Assembly: GCF_025643255.1 (NCBI RefSeq)
Contig: NZ_CP087112.1
Location: 2,728,001 to 2,792,000, forward strand
From: Halomonas sp. 7T
GTDB lineage: Bacteria > Pseudomonadota > Gammaproteobacteria > Pseudomonadales > Halomonadaceae
Reading direction: 5' to 3'
DNA length: 64,000 bases
The notes below the pieces were generated by a model. It made no database searches and was not told the origin of the DNA. It saw only the letters and a program-made list of their open reading frames with translations. The position numbers and the translations under genes were made by a program. Positions 22,926-40,134 of this stretch are shown piece by piece (position 1 is the first letter of the stretch; the number at the start of each line of letters is the position of its first letter).

Positions 22926-23133
22926 TTTCTGAGCTGCCTGGGCGGCAGCGCACCAGATACGCGATATTTTCTACCCGACCATTGATTTCTGAGCTGCCTG
23001 GGCGGCAGCGCACCTGCACTCACTCAAATGCTGAGCCGCGCGGCTTTTCTGAGCTGCCTGGGCGGCAGCGCACTAAGCCCATTCCTATCTTTGTGGTCAA
23101 TCTGATTTCTGAGCTGCCTGGGCGGCAGCGCAC
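22926..23133 (-). repeat. CRISPR duplicated block, copy 1 (spacers S41-S43)
   Basis: This 208-bp segment of four repeats and three spacers is identical to 23886-24093. The copies are offset by 960 bp, exactly 16 repeat units, and the flanking spacers differ on both sides. Confidence 0.97.
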
Positions 23134-23885: not shown

Positions 23886-24093
23886 TTTCTGAGCTGCCTG
23901 GGCGGCAGCGCACCAGATACGCGATATTTTCTACCCGACCATTGATTTCTGAGCTGCCTGGGCGGCAGCGCACCTGCACTCACTCAAATGCTGAGCCGCG
24001 CGGCTTTTCTGAGCTGCCTGGGCGGCAGCGCACTAAGCCCATTCCTATCTTTGTGGTCAATCTGATTTCTGAGCTGCCTGGGCGGCAGCGCAC
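23886..24093 (-). repeat. CRISPR duplicated block, copy 2 (spacers S57-S59)
   Basis: Second copy of the block at 22926-23133. It lies closer to the leader. Thirteen unrelated spacers separate the copies. Confidence 0.97.
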
Positions 24094-25182: not shown

Positions 25183-25752
25183 TCAAAACCAGGGCACCGT
25201 GGCGTTGGGGCTTAGTCCGTAATGGCTAAACGCGCCCTCCGTTGCAGAAGCGACAGGTTTACCATGTGCAATAAACAGGCTAAAACGCTGTTGGGTGGAG
25301 CGGCTATTGATCTGCACAAACGGTAGCTCAATTCGTCGAGCCGCCACCTTGGCGTAAATACCCCTCGCCTCCTCTTCGCTAATGCTGTGGCGTTTGGCGT
25401 AGCGTTTGACCCTGCTTTCACTCCCCGTATTAAACTGCTTACGCGCCACGTTGATATGCCGGACACTCTCGGGCACCGTAAGCACTTCACTCACCTGGGT
25501 GTGGTCGCGCATGCCCGTTAGCCAGTCCGCACTCATTAGCTGCTGCAAACGTGTTTGCGAGCCATGTAGGCGAAGGTACTCACCTAACGTCCGGGCTCGA
25601 ACACCGTGCTTATGGCCAGGAAAACTGACGCCTACATCCACAGCCTGTAAATCAAACAGCGCCCGGTGTAGCTTGTTGTAAAGCGCGCCCATTAACATTG
25701 CCGGGGCAAAGTCAGGGTCGGGCCTTAAACGAATGTCGATATAGTGATCCAT
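25183..25752 (-). CDS. cas6f: Cas6f (Csy4) crRNA endoribonuclease
   Basis: A 189-residue protein closely matching Pseudomonas Csy4: it opens MDHYIDIRLRPDPDF and ends HYGLSPNATVPWF. The catalytic histidine is His29 (NKLHRAL) and the partner serine is Ser150 (QINSRST). It cuts pre-crRNA just 3' of the repeat stem-loop and stays bound to the crRNA 3' hairpin in the Csy complex. It is the last gene of the csy operon, three bases after cas7f, and is followed by the operon terminator. Confidence 0.97.
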   Translation of the reverse strand: MDHYIDIRLRPDPDFAPAMLMGALYNKLHRALFDLQAVDVGVSFPGHKHGVRARTLGEYLRLHGSQTRLQQLMSADWLTGMRDHTQVSEVLTVPESVRHINVARKQFNTGSESRVKRYAKRHSISEEEARGIYAKVAARRIELPFVQINSRSTQQRFSLFIAHGKPVASATEGAFSHYGLSPNATVPWF

Positions 25753-25755
25753 GGT

Positions 25756-26781
25756 TTACCCCGCTTCGCCGAATACACCGCCGCGAATCAGGGTCGCCAT
25801 GACAAAGTGCTGCTGCTCAGTGGATGGCACTGAATCCTTAATCATCCAGTTATCCAGCAGTGAGTAGAAATCCGCCTTTTGCTTTGGCTGGCGATACGCT
25901 TTGCCCTGGGTAGTTACTGAACCATAAGGCTCAACGGCAATAGGGCCTAAATCTTCATCGTTCTCATTGGGATACCAGGTGTCGATGGTACGAATGGCGT
26001 TACCCAGCTTCTGCGAGTGAATACCGGCAATATCGCTGACGTGGTAAAGCGTTTTGCTTTTGTCGCCTCGGCCCCGATCAAGAATCAGCTCTTGAGAAGG
26101 GAACACTTCTTGTCCGCTACCCATGCGGACATAGGCCATCACTTCTAGCAGTAAGTGCTGCTCACCGGCCAACGCGGAGGAGATAACTCCGGCGAGTTCT
26201 TTAAGCTCGGCGGTGTCCTCAAAGGCCCGCAACGAAAGTGACAGTGCATCAAACGTCCACTCTTTGGTGGCTTTACCCTGCGCCAATTGGCGCACGCTGA
26301 CTTCAACTTGCTCTGCCCCCATGCGGTTACGCCACAGAAAGCGACCATTAGCGAGGTTGTTGGCATAGCGATGCGCCAGCTCGCCAAAGCCTTGCGCTTG
26401 TTTATATTCGGCAACGGCTTGTTCCAGTTTGGCCTGATACTCAGCGTTATTACAGGCCGAAGGCGTTCCGGCACCAGCCAGTACGCGCAGGGTAAAGCGA
26501 GCAACCAGGGTATCCGCATCGTGGGGCAGCGTGGCGACATCGACCGTTTGTAGGTTGGGGTTTTCAATGGCGGCGTCTAACTTGGCGGGGTCCTGGTCTT
26601 TGGCTTTCAAGCGGTTGGAAATAGTGCCGCGTACTGACTTTTCACGCACCTCAACCGGCTGCCATTGCTGTTCATCTTGCCGCTTATCCCAGTTGCTGGC
26701 GTACAGCAGCGCATCGGAAGGGTCGAGCTTGCGCTCAAAAGCGAGGACGGAAGCAGTTTTAAGGGAATCGTTTTTAGCCAT
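25756..26781 (-). CDS. cas7f: Cas7f (Csy3) Csy-complex backbone protein
   Basis: A 341-residue type I-F backbone subunit; six copies coat the crRNA spacer. The sequence has the family features [21 protein letters not shown] near the start (in parts [13 protein letters not shown] and DPSDALLY) and the [15 protein letters not shown] region in the middle. The Cas7f thumbs fold every sixth guide base away from the target, which matters for the pseudo-spacer match described at 29381. It lies 15 bp after cas5f and three bases before cas6f. Confidence 0.96.
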
Positions 26782-26796
26782 GATAAAGCTCCTTGT

Positions 26797-27765
26797 TTAC
26801 TGTGCTGAGGCGCGAAGGTGATAGTCGTTATTAAGACGGTAGAGGCCCGCTTCTTCGTCGTTATCAACGTACCAAAGCAGGTCTTCAGGTTGCTTCATGC
26901 GGTGCGGGCTAACCCATTCACCCATGGAGTAGAGACTTTCGACAAAGCGGAACGGGGTCTTGGTATCACGGGCGTTGGCGACTTCACTTGGCTGGAAAAG
27001 ATCTGAAATAGCGCCATAACCCACTGGAATGGGCACCAACCAGCCGCGATAGGGCCGCTGCGCTTGCCAAACAGGCTTCTCGTTGGGCTCGCCTTCATTT
27101 TCTAACGTGCACACATGGTTAAGACGGGAGAGGTCTAACCATGCATCCAGTAAACTGGCGTCTGGATTTTGCTGTTGCAGTGTTTGAAGGTGCTCGGTGA
27201 GGTAGTCATCCCGCAGCGTGAGGGCAAAGCCCGGCAGCCAGCGCCGCTTTAAGCGCGCGAACTTTTTTTGCCGTTTTTCTTCATCGTCATCAAATGCAAC
27301 CCATTGCGGGTGTTGTTTATGGCTCGGCACGTTGCGATTGGGCACCACACTGCCACCGGCAATACGCATGCCCGATACCATCTCACTGATTTGGTGGGCG
27401 ATATCCTCATGCTCGCTTTCTGCAGCGCCGGTATCAATCGCGAAGATCAGCGTGATATCCAAATGGATACGCCCTTCTTCTACAATCGCTGCCGTGCCAC
27501 CTGATTTATCCACCGGGTTACGGGTCAGGTGAAAGCCACGAATGTAGCCACCCTCAGTGGCCTGGGCTTCAAAGTCATGGCAAATAACCCCAACGCGGCC
27601 TAACGAAATGGGAAGACTCGCCTCTACCAGCTTCCGTTCCAGAGCATGCATCAAGCCTACAAATGCACTCATGGCAGGAAAGCCCCAGGTCATTGGGCTG
27701 GAAATCGCGTTGGCGTTTTGCACGCGCAGGCGCGGCAGAACCAGAAGGTTTTTTACTTTACTCAT
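26797..27765 (-). CDS. cas5f: Cas5f (Csy2) Csy-complex tail protein
   Basis: A 322-residue Cas5f subunit, which with Cas8f forms the tail holding the crRNA 5' handle. Recognisable parts include NLLVLPRLRVQNANAISSP at the N-terminus and RGFHLTRNPVDKSGGTAAIVEEGR. The ATG at 27765 (MSKVKNLL) is preferred over an upstream GTG because it matches the family start. It overlaps the end of cas8f by eight bases, an ATGAGTAA junction, so translation is coupled. Confidence 0.95.
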   Translation of the reverse strand: MSKVKNLLVLPRLRVQNANAISSPMTWGFPAMSAFVGLMHALERKLVEASLPISLGRVGVICHDFEAQATEGGYIRGFHLTRNPVDKSGGTAAIVEEGRIHLDITLIFAIDTGAAESEHEDIAHQISEMVSGMRIAGGSVVPNRNVPSHKQHPQWVAFDDDEEKRQKKFARLKRRWLPGFALTLRDDYLTEHLQTLQQQNPDASLLDAWLDLSRLNHVCTLENEGEPNEKPVWQAQRPYRGWLVPIPVGYGAISDLFQPSEVANARDTKTPFRFVESLYSMGEWVSPHRMKQPEDLLWYVDNDEEAGLYRLNNDYHLRASAQ

Positions 27766-29140
27766 CGTCATCACCACCTGGCAGGTTGGTTAAGTCTTCC
27801 ATTAGGCTTTCCATCCATCGACGGTCACGATCCAGCATGGCTTGATGGGTAGCATCTTTTGCGAGTGTTTTCTGCCAGTGTCGAAATTCCACATCGCCTA
27901 ATGGGAGCTTTTCACCCAACGCCGCATTGAGCCAGTTAGCAAAGCGGTGGCGAACCTCGTCTGCCCACTCCACGCTGTTTCGTGCTTCACGAAAAGCGGC
28001 ATCTTGCTCGGCACGCCCCGGATCTAACCAGAAGGCTTCTTCGGCGGCCAATTCGCATTTGTCATCCGCACTCCACCCGGCGGGTAGGCTGTGCATCTGC
28101 ATGGCAAACAGCGCCAGCTCATCCATCAACATGGCGGTGTAGTCATCGCGCAGGTCGCGGGTGTGCATGTCCGTGGAGGGGTTGGTCTCAAGAAACTGCT
28201 TTAGGTCTTTAACCAAACCTTTTACGCCGCCTGTGTAATAGAAAATACCAAACGGTTTAAATACTGAATCCACTTTCATCGGCAGTCGGATGTCACGCAC
28301 ATTCCAACTAGGTGGCATTGAGGCTAATAGATAGTTATTCCCACCCCGCTCACTATTCAGCTGTGAGATATTTTGCGGCTTGGTGCCGCCCATTTTCTGT
28401 ACGGCTAGATTGGGGTAGCTGTGCACGGGTTGCTCGGCGTATTTGCCTTCCCGTTTTGCCTTACGTGTTTCTTTGGCCTCTTCGCTAAAGCGGTCATGGT
28501 TAATGGTTTGAAATACGCGGTGGGCCAGCGAGGTGGCATAGAGTGGGGCTAGTAAACGGAAGTTATCTGCGTCATTTTCTAGGTCTGCTGCATCCTCCCC
28601 CACCAGCCAATAGAGCTGTTTGCCTCGAGTATGTGAGGCGTGCTCACCCCGCGGTTCGGTAATTGCCGCAAAGGCGTTGATCCATTCTTGGGCTTGTTCG
28701 GGGTTATCGCTTAATGCTTTTGCCAACTCAGTGTCATTTTCCAGCGCACGCTCAAGCAGTGATTTCCCCTCAAATTGCAGCTTCAAGAACTTATAAACAT
28801 CCAAAGCCGCGGCGTTCCCCACGACATCGCCCGTAAAATCAGCGGATAGCGCGTGGCTGCCGACAAGACGATGGTTGTTTAGCGATTCAGGAGGGGCGTA
28901 AAGATTGGAGCCTTTGGCATCCGGGTGAATAGGTTTGAGAGAATGGGTAACGACTTGCAGTTGACCAACGCGCCTTGCTGCATCGTTGATCCAGGTATCG
29001 AATTGGAACTGCTCAACCAGTGCTTGGTATTTCGGATCGTCAGGAGCTAGCTTTTCTGCCTTGGTATCGAAGCGCTCTTTTAAGAAGGCTTCGACCAATG
29101 TTCGAAGTTGCTGCCAGCTTCCGCTAGGAATGTTAGGCAT
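27758..29140 (-). CDS. cas8f: Cas8f (Csy1) large subunit
   Basis: A 460-residue type I-F large subunit, which recognises the CC PAM and the 5' handle. Family segments include AKGSNLYAPPESLNNHRLVGSH, given here in parts as AKGSNLYAPP and NHRLVGSH, then QKMGGTKPQNISQLNSERGG and the C-terminal helical bundle. The ATG at 29140 (MPNIPSGSWQQLRTL) with AAAGGATG upstream is chosen; a longer frame to 29206 has no family support. It heads the csy operon, whose promoter appears to lie about 210-240 bp upstream beyond a structured leader. Confidence 0.95.
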   Translation of the reverse strand: MPNIPSGSWQQLRTLVEAFLKERFDTKAEKLAPDDPKYQALVEQFQFDTWINDAARRVGQLQVVTHSLKPIHPDAKGSNLYAPPESLNNHRLVGSHALSADFTGDVVGNAAALDVYKFLKLQFEGKSLLERALENDTELAKALSDNPEQAQEWINAFAAITEPRGEHASHTRGKQLYWLVGEDAADLENDADNFRLLAPLYATSLAHRVFQTINHDRFSEEAKETRKAKREGKYAEQPVHSYPNLAVQKMGGTKPQNISQLNSERGGNNYLLASMPPSWNVRDIRLPMKVDSVFKPFGIFYYTGGVKGLVKDLKQFLETNPSTDMHTRDLRDDYTAMLMDELALFAMQMHSLPAGWSADDKCELAAEEAFWLDPGRAEQDAAFREARNSVEWADEVRHRFANWLNAALGEKLPLGDVEFRHWQKTLAKDATHQAMLDRDRRWMESLMEDLTNLPGGDDDE

Positions 29141-29261
29141 TACACATCCTTTCAAACTCATATTTGGGAAACACGATAATTCGTGCCAATATAAGCCCCG
29201 AGGCAAGACACCTCGGGACGAGTTGTAAAGCGCTAAACTCTTCTAACGGAGCAATAGCCAA
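29133..29261 (-). other. Alternative leader ORF overlapping cas8f start (weak)
   Basis: A 42-codon frame from a TTG at 29261 runs into the cas8f start and stops at 29133, eight bases inside cas8f. It encodes a mildly hydrophobic peptide (SGLILARIIVFPKYEFE). The frame is open upstream to 29365 but has only a GTG at 29273 as another start. It could be a translationally coupled leader peptide or a decayed gene; it competes with the 10-codon frame for the same ribosome binding site. Confidence 0.25.
29172..29217 (-). other. Two hairpins in the cas8f leader
   Basis: On the minus strand CCCGAGG pairs with CCTCGGG (29197-29217), and CACGA pairs with TCGTG around TAAT nearer cas8f (29172-29185). Neither is followed by a T-run, so they are more likely leader structure than terminators. 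Confidence 0.5.
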
Positions 29262-29280
29262 CCACTCTCTCACCTCCTTA
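29233..29280 (-). ncRNA. Candidate CreT-like toxic mini-ORF with perfect Shine-Dalgarno
   Basis: On the minus strand TAAGGAGGTGA, an 11-nt perfect complement of the 16S 3' end, begins at 29280. A GTG follows the GG core at the best spacing (29265). It opens a 10-codon frame (MVGYCSVRRV, stop at 29233) in which codons 8 and 9 are AGA AGA. A very strong ribosome site feeding a tiny frame with tandem rare arginine codons is how the CreT RNA toxin of haloarchaeal type I-B systems sequesters tRNA. The RNA would come from the promoter targeted by the pseudo-crRNA. The frame could be chance, since the same bases read TTA GAA GAG in the 42-codon frame. Confidence 0.4.
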
Positions 29281-29296
29281 CTGCTTCCAGCAGTTA
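29280..29296 (-). other. Hairpin resembling the pseudo-repeat stem
   Basis: On the minus strand AACTGCTGGAAGCAGT forms a small hairpin directly in front of the Shine-Dalgarno. Its bases resemble the stem and loop of the first pseudo-repeat (ACTGCTGGAAAAGCAG) with two bases missing, so it may be a further decayed repeat. Confidence 0.35.
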
Positions 29297-29319
29297 CCAG
29301 CCTGATTTTTGCCTCACCA

Positions 29320-29341
29320 CTCGGCAGTGCCAGCTGCCGAG
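29320..29341 (-). other. Perfect 8-bp inverted repeat near the predicted transcript start
   Basis: CTCGGCAG and CTGCCGAG flank a 6-base loop, immediately downstream of the predicted -10 of the csy promoter. It could be an operator or a 5' RNA hairpin. Confidence 0.55.
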
Positions 29342-29349
29342 TGATTTCA

Positions 29350-29378
29350 AGAATAGACCCATCCTATAAAAATATCAA
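29350..29378 (-). promoter_or_regulatory. Predicted promoter of the csy operon
   Basis: On the minus strand TTGATA (29378-29373), 17 bases, then TATTCT (29355-29350). A second, overlapping candidate has TTGATA at 29388-29383 and TAGGAT 16 bases further. Either would start a transcript near 29343, giving a leader of about 200 nt before cas8f. Confidence 0.6.
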
Positions 29379-29380
29379 CG

Positions 29381-29402
29381 CCTATCAACATTCACTTTTT
29401 TA
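29381..29402 (+). promoter_or_regulatory. Pseudo-crRNA target site with CC PAM
   Basis: CC at 29381-29382 is followed by TATCAACATTCACTTTTT. Against the pseudo-spacer 5' end TATCATCATTCGCTTTATT it matches at positions 1-5, 7-11, 13-16 and 18-19; mismatches are at 6, 12 and 17, and the match decays after 19. Positions 6 and 12 are unpaired in type I-F complexes anyway. The site abuts one predicted -35 box and covers another. Confidence 0.75.
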
Positions 29403-29440
29403 CATAAAAAAATAACCAGCAGCACCATCATTGAAAAATC

Positions 29441-29446
29441 TATAAA
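29441..29446 (+). promoter_or_regulatory. Possible -10 box for the pseudo-crRNA
   Basis: TATAAA on the plus strand, which would start transcription near 29453, 15 bases before the first pseudo-repeat. No good -35 box is seen. Confidence 0.4.
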
Positions 29447-29467
29447 ATGGGTTTGTAGGTTAATGAT

Positions 29468-29553
29468 CTTGACTGCTGGAAAAGCAGCTCAGAAATATCA
29501 TCATTCGCTTTATTCATGGATAAGCATCATCTGCCGCACAGGCAGCGGGCCGG
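29468..29553 (+). ncRNA. Degenerate mini-CRISPR: candidate CreR/CreA crRNA-like guide RNA
   Basis: Two repeat-like units flank a 30-nt pseudo-spacer (29496-29525) on the plus strand, opposite to the cas genes. Unit 1 (29468-29495) has stem CTGCT/AGCAG around GGAAA and ends with the exact handle CTCAGAAA; the stem differs from the array's CTGCC/GGCAG by a compensatory C-G to T-A change. Unit 2 (29526-29553) keeps CTGCC, GCACA, GGCAG but not the handle. Cas6f cleavage at both would yield a crRNA-like RNA with handle, guide and 3' hairpin. CreA and CreR RNAs of other cas loci have this layout and guide the effector to a promoter without cleavage. Confidence 0.8.
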
Positions 29554-29568
29554 TGTCTATTACCGGCC
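29547..29568. terminator. Hairpin between pseudo-repeat 2 and the cas2-3 stop
   Basis: GGCCGGT and ACCGGCC flank a 7-base loop, directly after the cas2-3 stop codon (minus strand) and directly after the second pseudo-repeat (plus strand). It could end transcripts from both sides. The T-run is short. Confidence 0.5.
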
Positions 29569-29569
29569 T

Positions 29570-32500
29570 TCATTTGCTCCGCCAAAACCCCAATACCGGG
29601 TGATACCCCCAACGCTGGTTTCTAGCCGAGGCTGTCACCGTGCCGAAGGTTCGGGCGGCACGATCAAGGGAGATATCCAAGCCTTCTGCTAAGTCCGCTA
29701 GGGCTGTTAAGTAGTCGCTGGCACCCCAAGGCTGAATCCGCTCGCCCTGCTCTTTTTCTAGCGCTACCCGCACCAGCAGGCTCTCCTCCACCGGCACGTA
29801 GAGCTTTTCGCCCCGCCTTGCGCCATCGTCTACGCGGTGTAACGTCCAGGTTTCGCCGCCTTCATCGGGCAGCAGCGCGAGGGTTATTTCAGGTTCAAGC
29901 TGCTTGCGAAACGGATCACGCTGAATCAATACACCGGTTAAATGCAGTTGCGGCATCACATGCCAGCTATAGGCCCCTAAGGGCGGCGGCTTAGGTGTTT
30001 TGCCGATTCGGAGCTCTTTTTTGGTTAACGGCTCGGCGGGCTGTTCAATCATTAACTGGTGTAGCCGCTCATGCTCTAGATCAACAAGGCTATCCTTGGC
30101 GTGAAGTGTTTCTCGCGCCAGCACGCGGGGGCGGGCATCAATTACCTTGTACTCATCTTCCGTTAATAACTCACTAAGCGAGTGGCTACTTAATCGCCAT
30201 TGAAGATCTGTTTCAAAGCCAGGTTTGTGAAAGGCAGGCTTTCCAGATTGCTCTAAATGTTTGAGGTTGGTATCGAGCAGCAAAATATTGGGCGAATCAC
30301 ACGCCTGCTCGCGGTGTCGGCGTACACGGCCCGCTAGCTGGATAATCGAGCGCATGGAAGAAGGCTCTACTATCGCCCAGTCGTAATCGTGGTCGCGACC
30401 CACTTCAGTGACTGGCGAGCCCAGCACAATTAACAGGTGGTCGCTTTCTTCACTGCTATCCAATAGGCGGCGGATATCAGGCTGCTGAAACACGCGCTCG
30501 GGTTCGGCCCGTTGCAGCGTTTTATCTAACCGGCGCTCAATCTCTGAGCGCATCACCAACGGGTGGCGGGAGTGGTAAACGCAGAGGTGAATGCGCACAC
30601 CTTCTGGCGCGCCCTGCTGAAACAGAGCCCTGGCGACATCCACTAAGGGATCAATATTAGCCATGCGAACCAAGCCAAAGCTGACGCGTTTACCCGAATG
30701 CGGGTCAATGGAGTGATGCTGCTGGTGCAGCGCCAGCGCGTGCTCGCGTAGCAGCGCTGCAACCGCGGGCCTGATCTCTTCTGGGCGTTTACCTAACGCT
30801 GGCAACGCTAAAATATCGCCACGGCGGCGCACCGGGCTAGTGGCTAAGCGCTCTAACCGGCGCTTGGCAAACGCCTGATGCGTCGTTTTGAAGGTCTCGC
30901 TGCTGGCGCAGTTTTCATGCTGGCGGTCGTGCTCGTCGAACCAGGCGCAGCAGATATCCACCGCCAAGCCCGGTTCGCCACGGTGGCGTTGAAAAGCTTC
31001 ACGACCGCTGCGGTAAGCTTCATACAACCCTTCGACCAACGCAGGCGGCAAGGTGGCCGATGACAGCAGCACCCGCGATCCCAACAGCCCCGCCCAATTC
31101 ACTAACCGAGTAAGCGCAGGCAGGTCGTTGATATCGAAATCGTCGATTTCGTCGAGCACTAAATCACTGCTCATTAGCCGCAGCATAGGCACGATTTGCC
31201 GTCCGCCGCGTGTGCTTTCCGTGGCGGGCACTAGATGGTCAACGGTACATACCAAAATGGGCGCAGCGATCAGCGCGCGAGTGCCCGGCTCATCGCTCAA
31301 GCGGCGCAGCACCGGGTGATTATCAAAATTACCGTCGAACACCACGTGGGCATCTTCTTCGATCAACGCCTGTTGCGACGCCGAGCCTCGGGCTTCAGCC
31401 TGCTGCTCATAGTGTTCGAATAGGGCTTTATTGGCACTTCCCCCCACGCGTACGGCGAGTTCGTCTTCTCCCAAATTCAAGCGATCTCGTAGGGCCTGGC
31501 CAGTTTGAAGCGTCAGGGTGCGTAGCCCCAGCGCAATGCTAAACCGCGCGCCCTGCTGAGGGTCAGCCAACGCATACATGATGCGCCCATTGGCGAGGGT
31601 TTTACCGCACCCGGTGGACGCCATATTAATGCCAAAAAAGCCTTGCCGTTGGCTGCGCTCCCTTAGCGATTGGGCCAGGTCAAAGGCTTTATCTTGCCAG
31701 CGAAAACGTGGGTGGCTACTGCGCTTACGGAACCCTTTGTGGCGCGCTAAACGGGGTAAGTGGCTGTCGACGCTGGGTAGCGCGCGAGCAACCGCCGCCG
31801 CATGTTTCTCAACCCCCAGAATATGCTCATCCAATGGCTGGTTGGGCTTGCCGGTTTTGCGCACAGTATTGGCAATTAACGGGTAGTTGGGTTCGCCGCG
31901 CACGCGGTGCTGGAGGTCTTCTAGGCTTGAGTAGTGGTGGTCGGCGAGCATCAGGCTTAGCCGCGCCAAGTGCATGACGTAAGGACTATCAAGCCAATGG
32001 CGTTCATTCTCCAGCCGCAACTGTAACCGCGTGGCAAGTTTGGCGGCACGTTCACGCCAGCGGGAGGTACTCAGCGGCAACCCACCGCTGAATTTCCAGT
32101 ACGGTGCGATACGCTTAGGGTCTTGGGTTTCGGGAATCTCGTTCCACTCGGCATGGATAGAAGCAAACAGTCCGCCCAGCTGCTCTGCCTGAAGTGGCGC
32201 CTTTCCCCTGCCCCAGCGCCTTTCAGTATTGCCATCCTGTTCCGGCGGTTTTAACGGCAGGCGGTGGTGGCTGAGCACTAGCCAACCAAGTGCAGCAGCC
32301 AGCGGCGGCAAACGACTAAACACCGCCGATGTGGGGCTATCTAATCCGTCACGCTCTAACCCATCCAGCCAGTGCTGCTCTTGGTAGTCACCTTTAACCA
32401 GTCGCGCCAGCCAGGTGGCGTCGTCGTCACTGCCTACAAATGCTTGGAACAGGCGAAGCGATATCCACTCATGGCGGTATAAGTTGCGACCTTCCAACTT

Positions 32501-32914
32501 GCCTTTAAGCCGTTGCTGAAAGGCGTCGCAGGCTTTGCCCAGGTCGTGTAGTAACGCAGCAAAGGCGGTGAGCAACAGAATATCCTCGCCGTTGTGCCAG
32601 TCGTTTTCATCGCGGCGGCGCAGGATATCTCGGGCAGTGGTATTGGTGGGCACCGCGCCATTGATATTAAACCGCGAGGCATCACCCACCACCCACACCA
32701 GCTCGCTGTGGTCGTGACCCCGAATCCAGTGGCAGGCAACAGCAGTATTTTTGCGGGCGGTTTTACGCAGCAGCTTACGCAGCGTATCCAGCCCGGCCTG
32801 GGTAATCGGTGTTTGCCACGTGCGGTCGCCCCGCCGTTCGGCAAACTGGTCGAGGATACGGCGCGTTTCTTTCAGGGCATTTTTATTGCACTGGGAAATC
32901 AGCAGCACGTTCAT
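29570..32914 (-). CDS. cas3: Cas2-3 fusion nuclease-helicase (type I-F)
   Basis: A 1114-residue type I-F Cas2-Cas3 fusion. The N-terminal Cas2 domain (MNVLLISQCNKNALKETRRI onward, about 90 residues) is followed by the HD nuclease with LLHDLGKACDAF (His123, Asp124). The SF2 helicase has Walker A ASTGCGKT, the DEAH-like LVLDEIDDFD and motif III SSATLPP. It is recruited by the Csy complex to degrade targets and pairs with Cas1 for spacer acquisition. Its ATG overlaps the cas1 TGA (ATGA). A hairpin follows the stop. Confidence 0.96.
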   Translation of the reverse strand: MNVLLISQCNKNALKETRRILDQFAERRGDRTWQTPITQAGLDTLRKLLRKTARKNTAVACHWIRGHDHSELVWVVGDASRFNINGAVPTNTTARDILRRRDENDWHNGEDILLLTAFAALLHDLGKACDAFQQRLKGKLEGRNLYRHEWISLRLFQAFVGSDDDATWLARLVKGDYQEQHWLDGLERDGLDSPTSAVFSRLPPLAAALGWLVLSHHRLPLKPPEQDGNTERRWGRGKAPLQAEQLGGLFASIHAEWNEIPETQDPKRIAPYWKFSGGLPLSTSRWRERAAKLATRLQLRLENERHWLDSPYVMHLARLSLMLADHHYSSLEDLQHRVRGEPNYPLIANTVRKTGKPNQPLDEHILGVEKHAAAVARALPSVDSHLPRLARHKGFRKRSSHPRFRWQDKAFDLAQSLRERSQRQGFFGINMASTGCGKTLANGRIMYALADPQQGARFSIALGLRTLTLQTGQALRDRLNLGEDELAVRVGGSANKALFEHYEQQAEARGSASQQALIEEDAHVVFDGNFDNHPVLRRLSDEPGTRALIAAPILVCTVDHLVPATESTRGGRQIVPMLRLMSSDLVLDEIDDFDINDLPALTRLVNWAGLLGSRVLLSSATLPPALVEGLYEAYRSGREAFQRHRGEPGLAVDICCAWFDEHDRQHENCASSETFKTTHQAFAKRRLERLATSPVRRRGDILALPALGKRPEEIRPAVAALLREHALALHQQHHSIDPHSGKRVSFGLVRMANIDPLVDVARALFQQGAPEGVRIHLCVYHSRHPLVMRSEIERRLDKTLQRAEPERVFQQPDIRRLLDSSEESDHLLIVLGSPVTEVGRDHDYDWAIVEPSSMRSIIQLAGRVRRHREQACDSPNILLLDTNLKHLEQSGKPAFHKPGFETDLQWRLSSHSLSELLTEDEYKVIDARPRVLARETLHAKDSLVDLEHERLHQLMIEQPAEPLTKKELRIGKTPKPPPLGAYSWHVMPQLHLTGVLIQRDPFRKQLEPEITLALLPDEGGETWTLHRVDDGARRGEKLYVPVEESLLVRVALEKEQGERIQPWGASDYLTALADLAEGLDISLDRAARTFGTVTASARNQRWGYHPVLGFWRSK

Positions 32915-39926: not shown

Positions 39927-40006
39927 TTCCGCTACCGGCTTTTTTGGAAAACACTTCCGTTCATCCAAGGCTTTACAGACGCTATCAAGCCAAGGATAGT
40001 AGTCAT

Positions 40007-40103
40007 CACGACAGGGGCGCCGTTATCACGGCTGAGAAGCACCCTTTGGGCTGAGAAGCACCCTTTGAACCTGAACCGGATAACACCGGCGTAGGGAGTC
40101 GTG
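40007..40103 (+). ncRNA. TPP riboswitch with an internal 19-bp tandem duplication
   Basis: THI-box signatures are CTGAGA, CCCTTTGAACCTGA and CCGG-ATAACA-CCGGCGTAGGGA, closed by stem P1 (CACGAC 40007-40012 with GTCGTG 40098-40103). The segment GGCTGAGAAGCACCCTTTG occurs twice in tandem (40030-40048 and 40049-40067). It controls thiM-thiE by thiamine diphosphate. Confidence 0.92.
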
Positions 40104-40134
40104 GTGCCTCTGCACCACCTCCCTCCCGGGAGGA
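40101..40134 (+). promoter_or_regulatory. Expression platform sequestering the thiM ribosome binding site
   Basis: GTGGTGC pairs with GCACCAC (40101-40118), sharing three bases with riboswitch P1. Next, CCTCCC (40118-40123) can pair with GGGAGG (40128-40133), the thiM ribosome binding site. This suggests translational control. Confidence 0.65.

Follow-up and report, generated by a model that had tools for sequence, protein, structure and literature searches.

The DNA analysed here (the window, 64,000 nucleotides of Halomonas sp. 7T) belongs to a genome of one contig, 3,634,557 bases long, a chromosome of the Halomonas/Vreelandella family, and the named Cas8f proteins nearest to that of the window come from strains of Halomonas and Vreelandella. 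Its minus strand carries a complete type I-F locus (cas1, cas2-3, cas8f, cas5f, cas7f, cas6f), with cas2-3 (Cas3f) at 29570..32914, cas8f (csy1) at 27758..29140, and cas5f (csy2), cas7f (csy3) and cas6f (csy4) together at 25183..27777. The likelier start of cas8f is the ATG at 29140; the listed open reading frame extends to 29206. Below the cas genes lies a CRISPR array with the repeat GTGCGCTGCCGCCCAGGCAGCTCAGAAA, in which a run of three spacers, the first of them CAGATACGCGATATTTTCTACCCGACCATTGA, is present twice (22954-23105 and 23914-24065) as an internal duplication. Further along, the window contains a TPP riboswitch (Rfam RF00059) at 40003-40114.

The gap between cas2-3 and cas8f

Between cas2-3 and cas8f, the plus strand carries a two-repeat mini-CRISPR. 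The first degenerate repeat (psiR1, 29468..29495) has a five-pair stem, CTGCT/AGCAG, and its last 12 nt, GCAGCTCAGAAA, are identical to those of the array repeat, so that an 8-nt crRNA 5' handle is predicted. The 30-nt spacer that follows (psiS, 29496..29525), TATCATCATTCGCTTTATT, is the predicted guide, that is, the spacer of a putative CreA. The second degenerate repeat (psiR2, 29526..29553) retains an intact stem, CTGCC-GCACA-GGCAG. A guide between two degenerate repeats with a hairpin suited to Cas6f is an arrangement known from CreTA, and both stems are present here.

On the same strand, the CC at 29381-29382 is followed by TATCAACATTCACTTTTTT. This PAM and protospacer (29381..29402) form the sole genomic copy of a site that equals the guide at 16 of the first 19 positions, with mismatches within positions 1-20 falling at 6, 12, 17 and 20. 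The first-pass annotation of the window had reported just such a match behind a CC PAM (14 of 16, 16 of 19), with seed mismatches at 6 and 12 and fading past position 19, and the sequence agrees with it in each respect: the rest of positions 1-16 is identical, and 3 of 11 positions match at 20-30. The distance of about 115 bp that it gave from the mini-CRISPR holds for site to spacer and fails for repeat 1, which is 87 bp away. None of 5000 shuffled spacers equalled the match in the 496-bp stretch spanning the gap; with positions 6 and 12 left as N, the pattern has a single hit in the 3.63-Mb genome, at this very site, and the reversed control pattern has none. Searches of phage and plasmid collections with the gap region gave no match at an E of 1e-5, and a guide pattern like that of the window, sought among phage- and plasmid-type copies, gave none either.

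The target lies beside a predicted minus-strand promoter (29350..29378), for which the promoter scan gives the boxes TTGATA (29378-29373) and TATTCT (29355-29350) separated by 17 nt. The CC-flanked 16-of-19 match thus sits at a predicted promoter, as in CreTA, 2 nt from the -35-like box, and bound Csy would, we infer, occupy the promoter's upstream edge. Promoter-like sites number three in 29000-29600 on both strands, compared to a shuffle mean of 0.5. Both the abutting -35 box and an overlapping alternative promoter had been proposed before, and the scan recovers the two of them, the latter at 29388-29361. The earlier label of "csy promoter" is not retained, since a mini-ORF and then a terminator-like stem separate this promoter from cas8f.

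Read from the site along the minus strand, the order is promoter, a stem-loop at the predicted 5' end of a small RNA (29318..29343, from folding), a strong Shine-Dalgarno sequence AAGGAGGTG (29271..29279), a creT-like mini-ORF of 33 bp (29233..29265; GTG GTT GGC TAT TGC TCC GTT AGA AGA GTT TAG), a terminator-like stem-loop in the interval between mini-ORF and cas8f (29195..29219) and the cas8f start at 29140. A mini-ORF behind a strong Shine-Dalgarno sequence, placed past the site and running opposite to the guide, is again what characterizes CreTA. The terminator scan returned one site against a shuffle mean of 0.6, and since such sites are equally common in shuffles, the separation from cas8f is uncertain. 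Outside the region of the mini-gene promoter, the promoter scan gave no minus-strand candidate before cas8f, and some read-through into cas8f is therefore favoured.

Guide and target in related type I-F loci

Guide-target pairs were sought in 98 I-F loci. In the family, 275 genomes were searched and 75 of the 79 with a match yielded a Cas8f locus; in the order, 390 genomes were searched, 52 had a match and 30 were available as loci, and with 7 of these already in the set, 23 were added. Four weak family matches (G240, G241, G242, G253) and 22 order matches without loci fall outside the sample. A script sought a degenerate I-F repeat in a range that reached from 200 bp within cas8f to no more than 1.6 kb ahead of it, and then took the best CC-flanked match to the spacer on either strand. 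Acceptance was scored on 14 core positions (1-16 without 6 and 12; 17-20 were likewise unused). Two family rows (L007, L010), with guide-like stems on the other strand and 10/14, were judged chance and removed, so that 38 of 40 rows were retained; L094 was entered by hand with a score of 10/14. Five accepted pairs score 11 or lower (L009, L084, L094, L106, L133).

Guide and target are found in 49 of the 98 loci, 38 of 75 within the family and 11 of 23 outside it. A core score of at least 13/14 is reached by 37 of the 49 own pairs and by none of 2174 unrelated pairings of spacer and region; at least 12/14 is reached by 44 and by 2, respectively, and at least 11/14 by 34 of the unrelated pairings. 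The accepted pairs make up 26 seed families, and guide and target are altered jointly between close relatives (L001-L003; L011/L014). Based on these scores, the number of seed families and the joint changes, the guide-target matching is understood as coevolution, not chance.

The mismatches in the 48 distinct pairs are distributed most unevenly. There are none at positions 1-5 and 7, but 38 at position 6, 35 at position 12 and 30 at position 18, compared to a chance expectation of 36 of 48 per position; the remaining counts are 6, 2, 2 and 4 at positions 8 to 11, 4, 14, 10, 9 and 10 at positions 13 to 17, and 18 and 26 at positions 19 and 20. The low counts within positions 1-16 are partly by choice, because all of these except 6 and 12 were used for acceptance. 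By seed family, position 6 is mostly mismatched in 19 of 26, 12 in 17 and 18 in 17, compared to 5 for position 17 and 9 for position 19. Guide positions 6 and 12 therefore look unread, and 18 nearly so. In type I effectors every sixth base is flipped out, and the earlier reading of positions 6 and 12 as flipped-out bases gains support from mismatch counts that are those of chance. The mismatch at position 6 is dispensable, 10 of the 48 pairs matching there, and in three loci (L088, L107, L108) the guide matches its target at 16 of 16 positions. Two of these, L107 and L108, are distant I-F loci that have no mini-ORF; positions 6 and 12 match in them too. Spacer lengths range from 13 to 33 nt according to an automatic stem search, and several spacers are too short for a full R-loop, which makes binding of the target without cleavage plausible.

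Placement of the site relative to the promoter is likewise shared. Among the 28 loci that have both a guide pair and a mini-ORF, the -35-like box begins 0-3 nt past the PAM in 25, and in 19 the promoter scores 9.0 or more, a threshold below which 95% of random stretches fall; the window scores 10.5. A CC-flanked target was sought and not found in two mini-ORF loci, L103 and L136. As 47 of the 98 loci have neither part, in addition to these two with a mini-ORF and no target found, the module is dispensable. L103 combines an AGA-AGA mini-ORF with a repeat-like element, so that a decayed guide or a changed PAM is possible there. The best target of L112, L114 and L137 is a minus-strand one; the first two also have their mini-CRISPR inverted, and their target may be another gene.

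The mini-ORF, its rare codons and its start-codon hairpin

The first scan for mini-ORFs required a Shine-Dalgarno sequence, a short open reading frame and two adjacent rare codons. It was positive in 30 of the 98 upstream regions, with a background of 11 in 1.58 Mb of strand (0.0067 per region); L092, which is unlike the others and probably a chance hit, was dropped and L065, which has no near stop, was added, to give 30 mini-ORFs. Because that scan demanded the rare pair, the search was redone without the demand. Shine-Dalgarno sequence, short open reading frame and start hairpin together retrieved 27 of the 98 loci, a motif at codons 3-4 retrieved 25, and a rare-codon pair was present in 27 of 27 and 25 of 25, respectively, with backgrounds of 8 (hairpin) and 2 (codon motif) in 1.27 Mb.

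The pair is AGA-AGA in 12 of the 30 mini-ORFs, ATA-ATA in 12, AGG-containing in 3, TTA-TTA in 2 and AGA-ATA in 1, and it is placed at codons 8-9 in 28 and at codons 6-7 in L088 and L089. In the window, where the tandem AGA lies at 29244-29239, the three least used codons are AGA, AGG and ATA (47 open reading frames, 15,169 codons), AGA being the rarest at 1.98 per 1000; TTA, with rank 30 of 61, is not rare there. The sequence AGA-AGA occurs three times among 15,122 pairs of neighbouring codons in the window's other open reading frames, and of the 60 tRNA genes in the tRNA scan a single one is a tRNA-Arg(tct). Two consecutive rare codons, as in haloarchaeal CreT, are thus present in the form of AGA AGA. 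Viral copies of creT were considered and rejected: none of seven creT-like pattern matches in viral contigs has a rare pair at codons 8-9, and none has a stop inside the 16 codons inspected.

The start codon itself is embedded in a hairpin. In the window it spans mini-ORF nt 1-15 (29265-29251), with the pairs G-C, U-G, G-U and G-U. The four pairs 1-15, 2-14, 3-13 and 4-12 are kept in 82 of 84 cells across 21 distinct sequences, and the hairpin is complete in 19 of the 21 (the exceptions are L102 and L136). None of 10000 shuffles was equally good, and registers shifted by -3 to +6 gave at most 12 complete hairpins (at -3). Position 15 covaries with the start codon, ATG going with U in 7 of 7 and GTG with C in 13 of 14 (Fisher 7e-5, uncorrected for kinship), and loop nt 5-9 are mostly UUGGC, UUAGC or similar.

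On a tree of 97 Cas8f proteins, the mini-ORF labels need 33 changes, compared to a shuffled mean of 46.6, and the starred branches of this quick tree with long branches imply a minimum of 6 gain or loss events for ATA and of 10 for AGA. The window (AGA) adjoins L001-L003 (ATA), which have a rather dissimilar gap sequence; L097 and L098 have nearly the window's mini-ORF, but with AGG-AGG. It is likely that cassette exchange and codon change have both been at work.

Interpretation and alternative explanations

There exist clear likenesses between the gap in the window and CreTA of Acinetobacter sp. WCHA45, which is described in PMC10097628 as a type I-F module in the cas3-csy1 gap with a divergent two-repeat guide, a CC PAM, guide mismatches at 6, 11 and 18, and a 33-bp mini-ORF with a strong Shine-Dalgarno sequence. 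Same gap, divergent guide, CC PAM, partial match, 33-bp mini-ORF and start-codon hairpin are common to both, the Acinetobacter I-F CreT requiring a hairpin that pairs mini-ORF nt 1-4 with 15-12 (PMC10097628). Beyond the features described for WCHA45, the window has the stem at the predicted 5' end and the tandem rare pair at codons 8-9; and its site is upstream of the -35 box, whereas the WCHA45 target is downstream of the start site (PMC10097628). Toxicity of the WCHA45 CreT is lost by synonymous changes in codons 2, 3 and 5, codons 2 and 3 being TTT and AGC (PMC10097628). Sequestration of a tRNA is therefore disfavoured there, and hairpin and rare codons may have other roles here.

With haloarchaeal CreTA, the window shares strong initiation signals, tandem AGA or AUA codons, a stable stem-loop and repression of a promoter by partial pairing, as predicted here and described in PMC8501985. 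The I-B CreT concerned has tandem AGA (H. hispanica, AGA-AGA) or AUA (H. hubeiense, AUA-AUA), with one natural AUA-to-AGA switch and engineered AGA/AGG variants (PMC8501985). The Halomonas-type set extends these pairs by AGG-AGG, AGG-AGA, TTA-TTA and AGA-ATA. Haloarchaeal CreTA differs in being archaeal, of type I-B, dependent on a TTC PAM and located beside cas6, and the text seen of PMC8501985 describes no start-codon hairpin for it. CreTA as treated in the part seen of PMC9458426 likewise concerns I-B, and in the available excerpt of PMC12654330 the terms Halomonas and CreTA are unconnected. Among the matches listed, no title dealt with CreTA in the Halomonas/Vreelandella family; the supplement of PMC10097628, with its dozen homologues, or Shmakov 2023 may list some of the loci.

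Based on the collective evidence, in which the relatives compared are not independent of one another, the guide is understood as a CreA antitoxin and the RNA of the 33-bp mini-ORF as a CreT toxin, together a CRISPR-repressed toxin-antitoxin pair, and we would place the probability of this reading at about three in four. The sequence comparisons give good support to guide-directed repression by Csy, the main object of which is most likely the CreT-like toxin RNA. To proceed, the mechanism would require processing of the mini-CRISPR by Cas6f into the guide. Csy loaded with the guide would bind the site without cleavage by Cas2-3, because pairing ends at about 19 nt, and would keep RNA polymerase off the mini-gene promoter. 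If Csy or Cas6f were lost or blocked, CreT would be produced, and the combination of strong initiation at its hairpin start with two AGA codons could occupy initiating ribosomes and the single-gene tRNA-Arg(UCU). Growth arrest or death would result, as a punishment of CRISPR failure. Any effect on cas8f would arise from read-through beyond the terminator-like stem.

The same elements allow a wider but more tentative proposal, which we regard as possible rather than probable, of a rebuild-or-die switch. The toxin RNA and, through read-through, the csy genes would be driven by one Csy-repressed promoter; on failure, the CRISPR system would first have an opportunity to rebuild, and killing of the cell would follow. 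Start-codon hairpin and tandem rare codons would be joined on one scaffold, on which the pair has been swapped between Arg (AGA, AGG), Ile (AUA) and Leu (UUA) across the order, and loss of the toxin would leave a pure autorepressor of cas8f.

The guide could alternatively be a CreR, with Csy chiefly repressing the cas8f operon in a feedback loop and the mini-ORF as a by-product or upstream open reading frame. CreR guides, which autorepress, are reported for types I-B, I-E and V-A (review PMC13131331, seen in part), and CreR of Liu et al. 2023 is described in reviews as repressing cas genes, generally with no coupled toxin. Here, as in CreR, a mini-CRISPR guide has limited pairing to a promoter at a cas operon. 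Guide-directed autorepression as an idea is not new. Shmakov et al. 2023 (NAR 51:8150) reportedly described mini-arrays with standalone repeats whose spacers partly match cas8 promoters, and an I-F1 example is said to have been tested there as a regulatory guide.

The negative feedback of Csy on its own genes that the first-pass annotation had envisaged can be judged on the same grounds: the guide's CC-flanked target next to a predicted promoter speaks for it, and what is not supported is cas8f as the main object. Since the creT-like mini-gene and the terminator-like stem precede cas8f, autorepression by Csy is at most a second effect in the window, where feedback on cas8f via read-through is possible. 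CreR implies that the targeted promoter drives cas genes and that no toxin gene is coupled to it. In the window, mini-ORF and stem intervene, yet the mini-gene's promoter-like site is the sole one on the minus strand before cas8f; and a creT-like mini-ORF of predicted toxicity lies under the promoter. In L068, some 500 bp separate the mini-gene from cas8f, with a long stem and then a T-rich stretch in between. Covarying mini-ORF, hairpin and rare pair recur jointly, which would be needless for pure autorepression. For the window, we consequently hold the CreR explanation to be unlikely.

The balance changes in other loci, for 21 of the 98 (21 of the 49 with a guide) have the guide and no mini-ORF. 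Four of them (L056, L062, L101, L106) have a protospacer whose end coincides with a -10-like box, similar to TATAAT or TACAAT, right before the cas8f start, and in L087 and L107 the PAM adjoins a -35-like TTGAC with cas8f directly after. By their sequence, these six fit CreR, and the earlier feedback model describes them better. Comparison of L058 and L069 with L070, L061 and L065 reveals a clean deletion of Shine-Dalgarno sequence, mini-ORF and terminator, with guide, site, promoter and cas8f leader retained before cas8f and the guide still at 13/14. A toxin guard can thus probably turn into an autorepressor, and for these two loci, too, the earlier feedback model is the better fit.

That the mini-ORF might be a leader peptide, with ribosomes stalling at the AGA pair to alter the stem and so attenuate cas8f, is suggested by the layout in the window of a short open reading frame with tandem rare codons and then a stem-loop ahead of an operon. 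Leader peptides of amino-acid operons are built in the same way. The pair varies between Arg, Ile and Leu among relatives, which is odd for the sensing of one tRNA; the L068 mini-ORF is, as mentioned, far from cas8f; and the start codon itself lies within the conserved hairpin, all of which makes attenuation quite improbable. That the match is a coincidence, or the remnant of a self-spacer now without function, as the 47 loci with neither part might suggest, is hardly credible, being already contradicted by the covarying matches in 26 seed families, the absence of any cross comparison at 13/14 or better and the concentration of mismatches at 6, 12 and 18.

If the CreTA reading is true, bacterial CRISPR addiction modules would be far commoner than the few Acinetobacter cases, occurring as guide plus mini-ORF in 28 of 98 I-F loci. 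The 48 distinct pairs constitute natural data on how Csy reads its target, with a match that fades past about 16-19, and the swappable codon pairs on one scaffold would render the idea of tRNA sequestration testable. The natural deletions of creT would represent a route linking toxin guarding and autorepression. Expression studies of such cas loci would have to reckon with a likely toxin in the operon gap.

A minor observation concerns other small genes at this position. The examples run of such small proteins, from loci with a guide and from gaps with none accepted, had no Pfam match, and their NCBIfam matches were at best weak and far below the cut-offs. In eight loci (L005, L006, L007, L008, L010, L012, L013, L015) no guide was accepted in the gap between cas2-3 and cas8f, which is seemingly filled by a divergent open reading frame of about 60 aa, HicB-like by eye. 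In L009, L011 and L014, the guide is accompanied by two small open reading frames that resemble HicA/HicB by eye and lie on the cas2-3 side of the mini-CRISPR.
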